A DNA stretch of 5,091 bases, from contig JAFGIT010000184.1 of the NCBI GenBank assembly GCA_016929465.1, positions 1 to 5,091 on the forward strand, given 5' to 3'. The notes beneath the pieces are model-generated. The model was not told the DNA's origin. It did no database searches and worked only from the letters and a program-made list of their open reading frames with translations. Positions 1,721 through 5,091 of this stretch are shown one piece after another (position 1 is the first letter of the stretch; each line of letters starts with the position of its first letter). A program made the translations under genes and the position numbers. Origin of the DNA: JAFGIT01 sp016929465 [NCBI: Candidatus Coatesbacteria bacterium]. GTDB taxonomy: Bacteria > B130-G9.

Positions 1721-1814
1721 GTTTATTCATGCTTTCGAGATAGGCGCAGATTGCTTCTTTCGCCATAGCGGGGAGTAGTTTGCAGTTGGTAGTTGGCGGT
1801 TGGCAGTCAGTCAT
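1686..1814 (-). CDS. Possible 42-residue ORF starting at the S23 stop codon (doubtful)
   Basis: From an ATG overlapping the S23 stop, a 43-codon frame reads through the heptamers (MTDCQPPTTNCKLLPA) and continues as MAKEAICAYLES and onward to a TGA at 1686-1688. It uses the same frame and the same first 16 codons (three substitutions) as the cyclase start in copy A. The part after the repeat, from an internal ATG at 1766-1764, looks protein-like but matches no family I recognise. It overlaps the start of the membrane-protein gene by 35 bases in another frame. It may be a truncated remnant of a gene that once followed the cassette, or chance. Confidence 0.25.
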   Translation of the reverse strand: MTDCQPPTTNCKLLPAMAKEAICAYLESMNKHGEVISNNRGA

Positions 1815-1851
1815 CTCTATGACCTAAAAGGTATTGAATAAAGCCCGTTAT
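1766..1851. repeat. 86-bp direct repeat, copy B (left end of the intact S23 cassette)
   Basis: This copy aligns without gaps to 1179-1264 with 7 mismatches in 86 positions. It comprises a TAGCGGGG segment, the degenerate heptamers, and the last 14 codons plus stop of the intact S23 gene. Similarity stops at 1851, inside the S23 coding sequence. Confidence 0.9.
1774..1808. repeat. Short heptamer array, GGCAGTT type (left end of the S23 cassette)
   Basis: On the plus strand five degenerate heptamers follow each other: AGTAGTT, TGCAGTT, GGTAGTT, GGCGGTT, GGCAGTC. They are the reverse complement of the units at 2190-2276, so the two arrays form inverted repeats around the S23 gene. The stretch 1791-1807 (AGTTGGCGGTTGGCAGT) is perfectly complementary to 2191-2207 and again to 2205-2221. 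The last unit carries the S23 stop codon. Confidence 0.9.
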
Positions 1852-2178
1852 TAATTTTGAGATCAGGCTCAGATGTTCATATAGCTCATCAAACACTTGC
1901 TGATCAATATAACCTAGATCAAGAGCAATGTAGAGATGACTCTTCGTCTCGGAAGCCGAGGCCAGTGCAATAGTCAAGAAATTGGTGAAGTCCTTCTTGG
2001 TCTTGCGGTTGAATCCCTCGGCAATATTCGCCATGACAGAGATAGCGGAGCGACGAATCTGATCTCTGAGGGCGAAGTCGCGAGCGAATTGCCCATCCAT
2101 CGTCAGGGCATATATTCTGGCAGTCAGCTTCCTTGCCTCCTGCCACGACTTAATGTCCTCGAATTTGGCTATCTTCAC
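1807..2178 (-). CDS. Four-helix-bundle protein, 23S rRNA intervening-sequence (S23/IVP) family
   Basis: The 123-residue product has the hallmarks of the S23/IVP four-helix-bundle family: the FEDIKSWQEA start (6-15), DQIRRSAIS (39-47), NIAEGFNRKT (51-60), SASETKSHL (74-82) and LGYI (88-91). Length and motifs match full-length members, so it appears intact. Family members were first found as ORFs inside intervening sequences of 23S rRNA, and relatives (bAvd) accompany diversity-generating retroelements. Most others are orphans of unknown function, probably oligomeric and nucleic-acid binding. No rRNA, reverse transcriptase or variable-repeat pair is seen here, so the role is unknown. The gene starts at GTG behind a good GAGGAG site, sits between inverted heptamer arrays, and its stop codon lies within the first left-hand heptamer. 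An ATG overlaps the stop (ATGACTGA). Its 3' part is clearly AT-richer than the flanking enzyme genes, which suggests acquisition. Confidence 0.9.
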   Translation of the reverse strand: MKIAKFEDIKSWQEARKLTARIYALTMDGQFARDFALRDQIRRSAISVMANIAEGFNRKTKKDFTNFLTIALASASETKSHLYIALDLGYIDQQVFDELYEHLSLISKLITGFIQYLLGHRDD

Positions 2179-2183
2179 CGTCT

Positions 2184-2189
2184 CTCCTC
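2184..2189 (-). promoter_or_regulatory. Ribosome binding site of the S23-family gene
   Basis: On the minus strand GAGGAG lies five bases before the GTG at 2178-2176. This decides the GTG as start, since no nearby ATG in frame gives the family's usual N-terminus. The site directly abuts the last heptamer of the array, so pairing of the array with the inverted heptamers beyond the stop codon could affect its accessibility (inference). Confidence 0.7.
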
Positions 2190-2276
2190 AACTGCCAACC
2201 GCCAACTGCCAACCGCCAACTGCCAACTGCCAACTGCCAACTGCTAACTGCCAACTGCCAACTGCTAACTGCCAAC
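2190..2276. repeat. Tandem heptamer array, AACTGCC type, 12 units (right end of the S23 cassette)
   Basis: Twelve uninterrupted 7-bp units plus three bases run from 2190 to 2276 on the plus strand. With A=AACTGCC, B=AACCGCC and C=AACTGCT the order is ABABAAACAACA, so variation is confined to two positions of the unit. The array fills nearly the whole gap between the tricorn stop codon and the ribosome binding site of the S23 gene, so it would be transcribed as GGCAGTT repeats in the S23 5' leader. It is inverted relative to the shorter arrays at 1774-1808 and 1187-1221. It resembles the heptanucleotide short tandem repeats known from cyanobacteria in design, not in sequence. Confidence 0.95.
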
Positions 2277-2283
2277 GGATTCT

Positions 2284-5091
2284 CTATTCTATTTCCTCGA
2301 GCAGCTCCTCCACGGCCTTCTTCAGCTGGTTGTCGTCTGTCGTGCTGTAATCCTGCTCGGGCGGATTCTCGACGTAGATGTCCGGCTGCGCGCCAACGCC
2401 CTCGATCTCCTTGCCATCTATCATGCATGCCCGCCACCGGGGGATAAGAACGAATGTCCCGTCCAACAGCGTTGCGCCGCCGCTGACGAAAATCACGCCT
2501 CCATAGGTGGGCACACCGACCAGCTTGCCCAGGCCGAGCTCCTTGAACGAATTCGGGAACACCTCGGCATCACTATGTGAATACTCGTTTATCAGGACCA
2601 CGACCGGCTTGCGCCAGTTGAATCTCGGCTGCATAACCTTGAGGGCCCTTTCCCTGTCCTCGAAATAGAAGTAGACGTCTCGCCCCAATACCGAGAGCAG
2701 CTCATCGTGCAGGTTCCCGCCGCCATTGAAGCGAACGTCGATGATGAGGGCGTCTTTGTCCTTCAGGTCATGCGTCAGATCTCGCAGGAACTCCTTATAG
2801 GGCTCTTCCCCCATATACTGGACGTGTGCGTAGCCCACTTTGCCGCCGCTAAATCTCTCGGCGAGGGCCTTGCGTGTCTCGACCCAGGCCAGATAGACCT
2901 TCTCCCTGATATTTCCCCAAGAGCATGGCATGACGGTCACGAGCTCCGGCTTGCCGCGACCTCCTCTCAAGACCTCGAGGTCGATATATTCATCGACTTT
3001 CCCCGTGAAGAGCGCAAATGGATTGCTATATCTGCCGATTTGAACTCCATCGACCGAAAGTATGACATCACCTACCGCAATTTCGCTGCCTGGTAAGTTC
3101 GTCGGGCCATCAGGAATCACCCTGGACACCTTGAGCCCCTTGCCTCGCCAATTTCCGTCGAAATCGAGGCCCAATTGCCCCGTTTCCTCGAAGTCGGGAT
3201 CGCGAGGCCCCCACACGCCAAGATGCGATGCGCGGAGCTCGCCGACCATCTGCGACAGGATTATCCTGAATTCATCCGGCGTCGCAGCGGTGTCGAGCAT
3301 GGGGCGATATTTGTCCTTGATGGCGGCCCAGTCAACTCCGTGCATATCCTTATCATAGAAATAGAGGTCCATCGCTCGCCATGCTTCATTGAACATCTGA
3401 AGGCGCTCTGCATCGTGGTCTATTGTCATTTTTGCCATATAGGATACCGGTCTCATCATGCCGTTCGGCATCAGATTCATGATCATGCCGCCTCCGCTGA
3501 GCGCGAAGAATTCCTTGCCCTTCGCGTCCCAGACTATCTGGCGAGGGTAGAATCCAAAGGACGTCAGTTGCCTGGTCTTCTTACCGAACTCATCCACGAT
3601 GAATATGTCTCTCTTACCGAAAGCATCGGAGCCGTAGGCGTAGGTCTCGCCGTCCGGAGATGCTGCCAGCGGCCAGGAACGGCCTTGAGTGCGAGAGATT
3701 CTCATCGCCCGGAGGTGGATGTCATCGAAATCGAATGGCAGTGGCGTTCTCTCCTTCCCTGGCTTCCCAGCCCCTTCTTTCGGCTTTCTCCATTTCTTGA
3801 GGAAATCAAATAGCTTTGGCTTCTTGGATTTTTCTGACTTCTTGGCCTCGGATTTTTTCCTGCTCTTCCTGTCTGGTTTCTTGACGGCCTTCTCGTCGTC
3901 CTCCCCATCTCGCCTGGCCCTATACTCCTCCTCATCCTTCTTGGTCAAGAATACATGCCACACGTCGTAGTCGCTGTGCTTTTGCCATAGTGTGTTCTGG
4001 TTCGAGAGAAAGACTATTCTCTTTCCATCATCGCAGAGGCGGGGACCAAAGTCCCAGGCGGGGTTCTTCGTGATATTGTGCAGTTCTTCACCGTCAACTG
4101 AGACTATGAATATATCGCTCTGCCACCCGTCACACATCTTCGAAAAGACGAGGAAGTCTCCTTTTGGCCCCCACGAAACGTCCTCAATGAACGGTCCCTT
4201 TACGAGCAACTTGCTGTTTTTCCCATCCGAGTCCGCCACCCAGAGGTCGCGCCTCCCCGCCAGATACGCTATCTTCTTGCCATCTGGAGACCACACCGGG
4301 GCATACTCGAGTTCCTCAGTGGCAATTAGCGGGGTGATTTTGCGGTGCCTGGAGCGAGAGAGCTGCTTCTCCTTGGGATCGCTCGACTCCACGACGAAAA
4401 TGTCGTCATTCCCATTCCGGTCGGAGGAGAACGCCAGTTTCTCGCCCTTCGGATGCCAGGCGATGTGGCTCTCCCGCGCTGGGGTCTCGGTCAGATTCAG
4501 CCACTTCTTCGGTTCGGATGACGCCATCGCAAATACATCTCCGTGTACCACGAAGGCAATTTCTTTCCCATTCGGTGATAATGCCATCTCGGTAGCCCCA
4601 CTTCTGAATGCCTCATGCTCGAGCGGCGTCATCTTTCGATCGGTCGGGGCTTGAATATCGACTTTGTGGTGGCTCCCGGTGGTGGCATCTACGGCGTATA
4701 TCTCCGCGTCCAACTCGCAGACGATCGTGGAGCCATCGCCTGAAATTCGAGCATGAACCAGCCCATCTGCCCCAAAATCGGACACCATCCGTGCGTCGCC
4801 GCCATCGATAGGTTTTGCCCAAATATTCGAGGCGTCATCGCGGTCGGAAATGAAATACACATCGCTGCCATCAGCCGACCACATGGGATCGCTATCGCGG
4901 CCGTCGAATTTGGTCAGCTGCACAGCGGCCTGGCCTTCCTTCAAGGACTTGAGCCATAAGTCGAGGTTTGCGCTGCCATGATAGCCCCTGCTCCACCAGG
5001 GAACTCCGCCTCTGATGAAAGCCAAGGTCTCGCCGTCGGGTGAGAGCGAGGCACTTCGCGCGGAGCAGTCGATGAGCCTGACAGGCAATCC
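2284..5091 (-). CDS. Tricorn-type serine protease (beta-propeller, PDZ, S41 peptidase), 5' end cut off by the window edge
   Basis: Tricorn-family proteases degrade oligopeptides; the propeller gates access to a C-terminal S41-type active site. The frame is open to the window edge, so the start is outside; residues here count from the TTG at 5088. Residues 10-380 hold repeated TolB/WD-like blades, each with an SPDG-type turn (near 16, 71, 171, 212, 267, 307 and 352). A Lys/Glu-rich low-complexity linker fills 383-449, then about two more blades (455-545). The helical C1 region contains an EAWR motif at 568-571 and HGVDW at 583-587. A PDZ-like domain lies at about 636-710 and the peptidase core at 745-910. 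The expected tetrad is visible: Ser621-His622, nucleophile Ser839 in the NEYSHSD motif, and Glu896 in the EGVGAQPD motif, so the enzyme looks intact. The C-terminus ends in the usual QLKKAVEELLEEI helix. The stop lies only seven bases from the heptamer array. Whether it is cytoplasmic or exported cannot be judged without the N-terminus. Confidence 0.93.
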   Translation of the reverse strand, partial: GLPVRLIDCSARSASLSPDGETLAFIRGGVPWWSRGYHGSANLDLWLKSLKEGQAAVQLTKFDGRDSDPMWSADGSDVYFISDRDDASNIWAKPIDGGDARMVSDFGADGLVHARISGDGSTIVCELDAEIYAVDATTGSHHKVDIQAPTDRKMTPLEHEAFRSGATEMALSPNGKEIAFVVHGDVFAMASSEPKKWLNLTETPARESHIAWHPKGEKLAFSSDRNGNDDIFVVESSDPKEKQLSRSRHRKITPLIATEELEYAPVWSPDGKKIAYLAGRRDLWVADSDGKNSKLLVKGPFIEDVSWGPKGDFLVFSKMCDGWQSDIFIVSVDGEELHNITKNPAWDFGPRLCDDGKRIVFLSNQNTLWQKHSDYDVWHVFLTKKDEEEYRARRDGEDDEKAVKKPDRKSRKKSEAKKSEKSKKPKLFDFLKKWRKPKEGAGKPGKERTPLPFDFDDIHLRAMRISRTQGRSWPLAASPDGETYAYGSDAFGKRDIFIVDEFGKKTRQLTSFGFYPRQIVWDAKGKEFFALSGGGMIMNLMPNGMMRPVSYMAKMTIDHDAERLQMFNEAWRAMDLYFYDKDMHGVDWAAIKDKYRPMLDTAATPDEFRIILSQMVGELRASHLGVWGPRDPDFEETGQLGLDFDGNWRGKGLKVSRVIPDGPTNLPGSEIAVGDVILSVDGVQIGRYSNPFALFTGKVDEYIDLEVLRGGRGKPELVTVMPCSWGNIREKVYLAWVETRKALAERFSGGKVGYAHVQYMGEEPYKEFLRDLTHDLKDKDALIIDVRFNGGGNLHDELLSVLGRDVYFYFEDRERALKVMQPRFNWRKPVVVLINEYSHSDAEVFPNSFKELGLGKLVGVPTYGGVIFVSGGATLLDGTFVLIPRWRACMIDGKEIEGVGAQPDIYVENPPEQDYSTTDDNQLKKAVEELLEEIE

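Follow-up and report, generated by a model that had tools for sequence, protein, structure and literature searches.

An S23 gene between inverted heptamer arrays as a possible minimal mobile element of an unrecognised kind

REPINs are passengers of RAYTs, which are Y1 transposases, and the REPIN/RAYT system is defined by palindromic repeats together with a Y1 transposase gene. Mobility has long been proposed for the intervening sequences (IVSs) of 23S rRNA, some of which carry an S23 open reading frame, and the available text on the Coxiella IVS leaves open whether this ORF serves mobility (PMC4990558). Separate reports describe heptanucleotide arrays in Xanthomonas, Nostoc, Beggiatoaceae, and Geobacter, and one of them considers the role of the arrays still to be elucidated (PMC4692102). 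The published words, as excerpted, are GGGAATC in Xanthomonas and GGGGA(T/C)T in Nostoc (PMC4692102), TAACTGA in Beggiatoaceae (PMC4679880), and GGACCGG in Geobacter (PMC2700814). The excerpts count 186 GGGAATC repeats in Xcc, with 70 inverted pairs (PMC4692102), and 49 copies of the GGACCGG elements in Geobacter metallireducens (PMC2700814), and one of them contains the speculation that a repeat-binding protein could itself be a mobile element (PMC4679880). S23 genes in cas loci were earlier catalogued among CRISPR-Cas-associated functions, according to the accessible portion of that work. No link to S23 was found in the available parts of PMC4692102, PMC4679880, and PMC2700814, and no literature connecting heptamer arrays to S23 was found among open-licence full texts. 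Here, we describe an S23 gene enclosed by two arrays of one heptamer. The array–S23–array arrangement has the appearance of a very small mobile element of a type so far unrecognised, and such elements may explain the heptamer repeats scattered in bacterial genomes.

The window, that is, the whole stretch of 5,091 nucleotides analysed here, is contig C320 of a draft genome (3.19 Mb in 423 contigs, 86% complete). Its S23/IVP gene (1807–2178, minus strand) has a GTG start and encodes 123 residues. TRF detected a period-7 array downstream of the gene at 1777–1807 (4.4 copies, AGTTGGC) and a longer one upstream at 2189–2276 (12.6 copies, CAACTGC, score 148), whose sense-strand unit is GGCAGTT. The downstream array is inverted relative to the upstream array, and the S23 stop codon (1807–1809) overlaps its end. 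An inverted-repeat search gave arms at 1777–1807 and 2191–2221 (31 nt, 90% complementary). The preliminary description of this DNA had an S23 gene enclosed by inverted arrays of one heptamer, and this layout is confirmed. The perfect 17-bp inverted match that it reported between 1791–1807 and 2191–2207 is exact, and shuffling one arm 300 times gave matches of at most 10 bp. Its family assignment also stands, with PF05635 (23S_rRNA_IVP) matching at E 2.7e-36 (124.4 bits against a curated cut-off of 33.8) and TIGR02436 at E 1.2e-35 (122.1 against 24). The GC content of about 34% noted at 1851–1920 was measured as 34.3%, a value found in only the lowest 0.5% of all 70-bp stretches, and the whole S23 ORF has 46% GC versus 52–58% in the other three genes of the window. 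The upstream array had been placed exactly after the tricorn stop codon; this was inaccurate, as 7 bp (2277–2283) intervene.

All three other genes are on the minus strand: a tricorn-like protease gene open at the window end (2284–5091; PD40, Tricorn_C1, PDZ_Tricorn, and Peptidase_S41), orf148 (1274–1720), which has no Pfam or NCBIfam match at E 0.001, and a gene for an AroB-like 3-dehydroquinate synthase (121–1242; DHQ_synthase and DHQS_C). The listed 5′ end of the aroB ORF extends into a third period-7 array (1190–1220, TRF), which was absent from the earlier finding. The segment 1179–1264 is identical to 1766–1851 at 79 of 86 bases. Because this 86-bp repeat matches the left array plus the 3′ end of the S23 gene, we regard it as a truncated second copy (minus strand) beside aroB. 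Between the arrays, S23 was the single ORF submitted to the family search, from which shorter overlapping ORFs were left out, and no nuclease, transposase, or reverse transcriptase was recognised in the element. The sense transcript is predicted to fold into a long array–array stem (z −4.79), and the earlier idea of a hairpin-ended unit is plausible.

A counterpart of this locus without the unit, which the preliminary description had proposed to look for, was found in G003, a genome of the same family. The tricorn, orf148, and aroB genes occur there in the same order (63%, 34%, and 68% identity to the window over the compared parts, respectively) without S23. There is no array between orf148 and aroB, and the short gap between tricorn and orf148 contains GCAGTTGGCAGT, about two units of the window heptamer, which may be a footprint or a pre-existing seed. 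The place of orf148 between tricorn and aroB is kept in G003.

The genome of the window contains five PF05635 matches in a profile search, four of them above the cut-off. In addition to the window, where GGCAGTT arrays lie on both sides of S23, contig C330 has inverted GTTCAAG arrays on both sides, contig C259 has a GGGATAA array downstream (its upstream sequence being only 65 bp), and contig C405 has a GGGATAA/GGGATGG array upstream of a gene at the contig end. Two-unit GGCAGTT occurs 11 times on 6 contigs of this genome, 5 of them without an S23 match, and two-unit GTTCAAG is found at 16 places on 11 contigs, 10 of which lack an S23 match; the backwards-control words gave zero occurrences for both. 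Two of the array-only copies sit within open frames of 319 and 743 codons and leave the frames unbroken. Heptamers scattered without association with S23 genes were the outcome that the preliminary description had set against its own proposal, and taken literally the five GGCAGTT contigs without S23 are such an outcome. We read the S23-less arrays as dispersed array-only copies and not as a missing association with S23. At the upstream edge of GTTCAAG arrays (L231 and L236–L239), a T and the first AG of the array form TAG in 5 of the 10 contexts printed, a possible stop codon for the abutting gene.

The generality of the layout was examined in 80 S23 loci. These were not drawn at random but are the 80 best among 283 confirmed relatives of the window protein, and they span 23 named phyla plus seven loci without a named phylum. 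Scanning periods of 4 to 20 nt around S23 revealed a clear excess at periods 7, 8, and 9 and at 14, 16, and 18, any other period being found in at most 2 of 80 flanks. Period 7 was detected upstream of S23 in 23 of 80 flanks and downstream in 25 of 76, versus 50 of 2077 background segments. An array of period 7, 8, or 9 lay on at least one side of S23 in 55 of 77 loci and on both sides in 29, and 22 had no array at the threshold used. The corresponding numbers for control ORFs (120 codons or more, from other parts of these loci) were 29 and 5 of 124. A strong inverted match between 150-bp flanks was present in 33 of 77 S23 loci versus 2 of 124 control ORFs. With 220-bp flanks, an inverted match was found in 36 of 77 S23 loci and a direct one in 9, against an inverted background of 0.9% of 1522 cross-locus pairs and none of 62 far pairs. 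The shuffles, the 77-locus counts, and the control ORFs rule out chance or a local quirk of the window, and the control values likewise exclude position beside any ORF as the cause. Another 59 S23 rows at the same threshold (stretches matching under 60 HMM positions skipped) showed an array on either side in 45, on both sides in 20, and on neither in 14.

The sense-strand consensus of the unit contains GT in 84 of 91 flank arrays scoring at least 12 (39/43 upstream and 45/48 inverted downstream), and this GT is at least 90% conserved in 37/43 and 37/48, respectively. Among 88 background arrays of the same loci scoring at least 12.5, 13 contained GT, 29 AC, 1 both, and 45 neither. Apart from the GT, the words vary. 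Further S23 genes are accompanied by GGTAAAG, AGCTGAA, or GAAGGAT, and 3 of the 27 loci examined for units (L026, L030, and L040) had no array even at score 9. Each element carries its own unit of 7, 8, or 9 nt, so GGCAGTT is not special, and a single magic heptamer can be dismissed. The expectation of GGCAGTT/AACTGCC around S23 genes of relatives held for the inverted arrays, which flank many S23 genes, but not for the word, since units differ per element. From these data, it is close to certain that this is a real and general layout and that its parts form one unit.

Some individual loci have forms of their own. Genome G011 has 19 partial PF05635 matches, several of which are divergent inverted pairs a few hundred bases apart, such as C7:104028-104225(-)/104402-104554(+) and C2:122174-122377(-)/122544-122711(+). 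An S23-like frame in genome G043 (L147) has a long period-6 AGATTA array upstream, unlike the periods of 7–9 in other rows. A Pseudanabaena locus (L155) has long AGCTAAA/AGCCAAA arrays at 1380–1490 and 1866–1970 that run in the same direction instead of being inverted, and an inverted stretch lies farther upstream. In a contig titled Candidatus Acetothermia (L071), an S23 unit lies between two tRNA genes (2876–2947 and 3418–3490).

Enlarging the S23 set (five genomes reached via named loci, the three other genomes G019, G023, and G032, and 19 plasmid records) gave 95 elements with at least one array. The two arrays agreed in period in 44 of the 47 elements possessing both. Their unit similarity was 0.82, compared to 0.50 between elements, and was at least 0.85 in 33 of the 47, compared to 1.7% of cross pairs. 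Pairs of different elements in the same genome (n = 27) had a mean unit similarity of only 0.59, and for the most part the unit is therefore not a genome-wide trait. Between genomes, units agreed (at least 0.85) in 60% of 30 pairs at S23 identities of at least 70% (15/26 without four near-copies, one of which is the same gene counted twice), in 12% of 129 pairs at 60–70%, and in 0.4–3% below. This comparison left out arrays scoring under 12.5 or with periods outside 7–9, skipped six repeat loci, and missed one repeat (the first gene of L135 is L056); five loci carried no genome label (L052, L056, L057, L091, and L095), and thus a few same-genome pairs were counted as between-genome. The period changes more slowly than the unit. 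It changed 10 times on the S23 tree, from which L074, L117, and L121 were removed by hand, versus a shuffled mean of 22.6, and none of 200 shuffles was as low. The nearest S23 from another phylum shared the period in 38 of 59 cases, versus a shuffled mean of 22.9 and a maximum of 37 in 2000, with each locus without a named phylum counted as its own phylum. The clustering of periods partly reflects common descent. Given this descent, the poorly resolved tree, and the singly counted unnamed phyla, these results show co-inheritance of arrays and S23, and suggest rather than prove recognition.

Presence and absence of the unit at the same sites were observed on plasmids. A tblastn search of 72,556 plasmid records detected S23 in 29, mostly (24) cyanobacterial, and 19 of the 29 were read. 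The same search of 50,697 phage records gave no match, and phage carriage was rejected on this basis. The array–S23–array units on the cyanobacterial plasmids are 400–510 bp long. Site 1 is filled in Trichormus ATCC 29413 and Scytonema NIES-4073 (aligned) and empty, with uninterrupted sequence, in Nostoc linckia NIES-25, Tolypothrix PCC 7601, and N. carneum NIES-2107. GTAAT occurs once at the empty site and on both sides of the filled one, a clean 5-bp duplication. By coverage only, site 1 looks empty in H45, H47, and H49 and filled in T. variabilis 0441 (H41), and plasmid E of Nostoc C052 retains a truncated piece at this position. C052 plasmid D, ATCC 53789 plasmid a, and the Peltigera cyanobiont N6 carry the unit at site 2, whereas four other plasmids are empty here; the duplication, TTCTA minus one base, is imperfect. 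At site 3, ATCC 53789 plasmid c has the unit, four plasmids lack it, and the duplication is 3 bp long (ATG). Sites 2 and 3 are reciprocal, in that two Nostoc plasmids each provide the other's empty site. At sites 4 (N. edaphicum/C057) and 5 (Calothrix brevissima/N. carneum), one partner has the unit and the other a short, partly different junction, and these are not base-for-base simple insertions. A sixth candidate site (Aulosira) comes from coverage alone. A match of intermediate length was seen in H78 at the N. edaphicum site. The empty sites 1–3 contain no array, and the arrays therefore arrive with the gene. These observations show that mobility of the unit in cyanobacterial plasmids is well supported; by extension, the window unit would be mobile as well. 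The self-contained unit with 7-mer ends that the preliminary description envisaged is thus supported by the filled and empty sites and by the general layout, though not in any special part for GGCAGTT.

The S23 gene of N6 is interrupted by a 181-bp insert without S23, which has the same units, inverted, near both ends around other DNA. A blastn search detected sequences related to this insert in 43 plasmid records (98 places in all), and 28 of these records match at least 80% of the query in a single place. We read the insert and its relatives as S23-less derivatives. S23 genes were also located between cas6 and cas4 in Anabaena sp. 90 and Pseudanabaena, and between cas10 and a cmr3-family gene in Picosynechococcus. 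Array-like sequence adjoins the S23 genes inside cas operons (L152, L155, and L157). The cas6–cas4 pair of Anabaena sp. 90 and Dolichospermum was discarded as an empty site, the intergenic DNA being different throughout.

The AlphaFold2 monomer model of the window S23 (mean pLDDT 95.7) is a four-helix bundle. Its best Foldseek matches are Xcc0516 (2gsc, TM-score 0.86) and BT_0352 (2rld), the former being reportedly pentameric, to judge from the title of its structure paper. Weaker matches are to Avd (4dwl/8ub7, TM-score about 0.75, E 0.065 at best), both alone and in DGR ribonucleoprotein structures. Across 34 diverse S23 proteins, 19 columns do not vary, among them the block M49–F56 (MANIAEGF). 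Calculated on the first 125 residues, the pI of 81 S23 proteins has a median of 8.7 and a range of 5.4–9.7, with 8.1 for the window S23. No catalytic site was recognised in S23, as judged without a computational search.

We propose, with a probability of roughly 0.7, that the unit (about 1777–2276) is a minimal mobile element whose four-helix-bundle S23 protein recognises its terminal arrays. The element would consist of the left array, one S23 gene, and the right array. S23, probably as a pentamer of four-helix bundles, would recognise the repeated unit either on DNA or on a transcript with paired arrays, and this recognition would mark the ends at which a recombination activity, not visibly encoded by the element, carries out insertion or copying. 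As the unit would be read repeatedly, the arrays could expand and contract by slippage while drifting along with their S23. The same system could disperse arrays that lack S23, as well as array-bounded pieces of other content. Recognition of the arrays by S23 appears to be the most economical reading of the matched, co-varying ends. We infer that S23 binds the arrays and is needed for movement, and the same holds for the identity of the enzyme that would cut and join. Several findings count against a mobile element: the element has no recognised nuclease, transposase, or reverse transcriptase, some S23 loci have no array, only site 1 shows a clean duplication, sites 4 and 5 are not simple insertions, control ORFs not rarely have an array on one side or the other (29/124), and array-only copies are common, and hence arrays can exist without S23.

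These array-only copies would be expected if the heptamers came first, as slippage-prone intergenic sequence in which S23 landed by chance or by target choice, and the empty G003 site does already contain about two units. Such an order of events leaves the array-free plasmid sites 1–3 unaccounted for, together with a unit and period that follow the element rather than the genome and a fixed sense-strand orientation with its conserved GT, and we hold it to be improbable. It is also conceivable, though quite unlikely, that S23 is a resident nucleic-acid-binding regulator of its own mRNA via the upstream array, with the dispersed arrays as its regulon and the cassette moved passively. The best evidence for this comes from the order of G042 (Wenzhouxiangella), which we take to be Xanthomonadales, where 137 of 348 genomes have an S23 match and most of the S23-positive genomes listed have only one. 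Among the 30 best loci of this order (stretches matching under 50 HMM positions skipped), 14 have an upstream array only, 3 have both, none has a downstream array only, and 13 have none at the threshold. The flanking units in this order include GGGACCG, GGGACTC, and GGGATTC, and the published GGGAATC was found twice in L222 and twice in L229, the loci listed being those with more than one unit. The GGACCGG elements of G. metallireducens are annotated as predicted regulatory RNA elements in the accessible part of the report (PMC2700814). A regulator leaves the matched inverted arrays on two sides, the filled and empty sites, and the S23-less array-bounded inserts unexplained, and the upstream-only state in Xanthomonadales may represent a domesticated form of the same element.

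The mobile-element reading calls for a partner enzyme, and HUH Y1 single-strand transposases acting in trans are a lead only. The unit might be their passenger, as REPINs are of RAYTs, with S23 as an accessory. Y1_Tnp was present in 18/18 S23-positive versus 10/23 S23-negative genomes and, in the phylum of G043 (Kuenenia), in 78/102 versus 44/97 (odds ratio 3.9, p 1e-5). DDE_Tnp_1 was also more frequent in that phylum (74/102 versus 51/97, p 0.005), an association that was not significant with Y1 presence fixed. The genome of the window has three Y1 matches elsewhere. The relation between Y1 and S23 is correlative and is confounded by general mobile-element load. An obligate Y1 partner is weakened by the 24 of 102 S23-positive genomes of the G043 phylum without a Y1 match, among them G223 with 13 S23 matches in 10 Mb, in a set where genomes may be incomplete and 7/102 S23 calls are below the family cut-off. 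Moreover, the arrays are not palindromic, and IS200/605 insertion is not known to make a target duplication. Transport by Y1 transposases is thus possible but unlikely. The likeness to Avd raises the further idea that S23 works with a reverse transcriptase and that template slippage made the arrays, and the long array–array stem predicted for the sense RNA would suit such a retro-mechanism. RVT_1 was unrelated to S23 presence in 41 genomes (6/18 S23-positive versus 7/23 S23-negative), and no match was found in the genome of the window (86% complete) despite its four S23 genes above the cut-off. A reverse transcriptase partner is thus not supported, and we regard a retro-mechanism as very improbable.

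If the mobile-element reading is true, an element of 400–510 bp, whose protein has about 120 residues and no catalytic site that we recognise, would be very small. It would point to a way of moving DNA that is so far unrecognised. A single hypothesis, that S23 recognises its own array, would connect the heptamer repeats, the mobility of IVSs, and the S23 genes of cas loci. S23 genes in cas operons could then be recast as possible insertions of units of a kind that also inserts elsewhere, and the S23 system offers a testable source for the published heptanucleotide repeats. The wider proposal is that S23 with inverted 7–9-mer arrays forms a very widespread, unrecognised class of minimal mobile elements. 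The activity of S23, together with gene-less derivatives, would then be a main source of the over-represented heptanucleotide repeats of prokaryotes and of orphan MITEs, and the 23S rRNA IVSs would be a special case of such elements that landed in rRNA. We consider the odds of this proposal to be even.

The array–S23 unit fails a defining feature of each of the IS, REPIN/RAYT, and DGR classes. Inverted ends, as in an IS, are present in the window unit and in the S23 loci, and no transposase is encoded by the window unit among the family-searched ORFs. REP and REPIN/RAYT systems share with the S23 unit a gene flanked by repeats on which it may act and dispersed gene-less copies, often in inverted pairs, whereas the S23 units are tandem and non-palindromic and the gene encodes a four-helix bundle, not a Y1 transposase. 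S23 resembles Avd of diversity-generating retroelements in fold (TM-score 0.75 to 4dwl, E 0.065), and these differ from the S23 unit by a reverse transcriptase, for which the 86% complete genome of the window gave no match. The type II MITEs of Anabaena sp. 90 are described, in the part of the paper available, as small inverted-repeat elements without a matching IS (PMC3542288). The same strain has a plasmid with an S23 unit, and the likeness comes from the description, not from the termini.

The 23S rRNA IVS with an S23 ORF, as described for Coxiella in the accessible text (PMC4990558), involves the same protein family as the window unit and is of similar size (428–444 nt, versus 405–508 bp for the plasmid S23 units by length difference). 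According to the same excerpt, IVSs share with S23 units complementary termini able to form a stem, a GC content below that of the host, and an inferred horizontal acquisition (PMC4990558). The S23 units differ in that they are not in rRNA, their ends are tandem 7–9-mers, array-only copies are dispersed, and the unit changes from element to element. The window unit lies among tricorn, orf148, and aroB, outside rRNA, and was therefore not filed as an IVS, for which location in an rRNA gene is defining; an Rfam search of 20 of the 80 other loci, chosen as array-poor looking, found no rRNA. The published heptanucleotide repeats, as far as the available portions describe them, resemble the S23 arrays in unit length, intergenic dispersal, and inverted pairs, and similar words (GGGACCG and GGGATTC) stand beside S23 genes.
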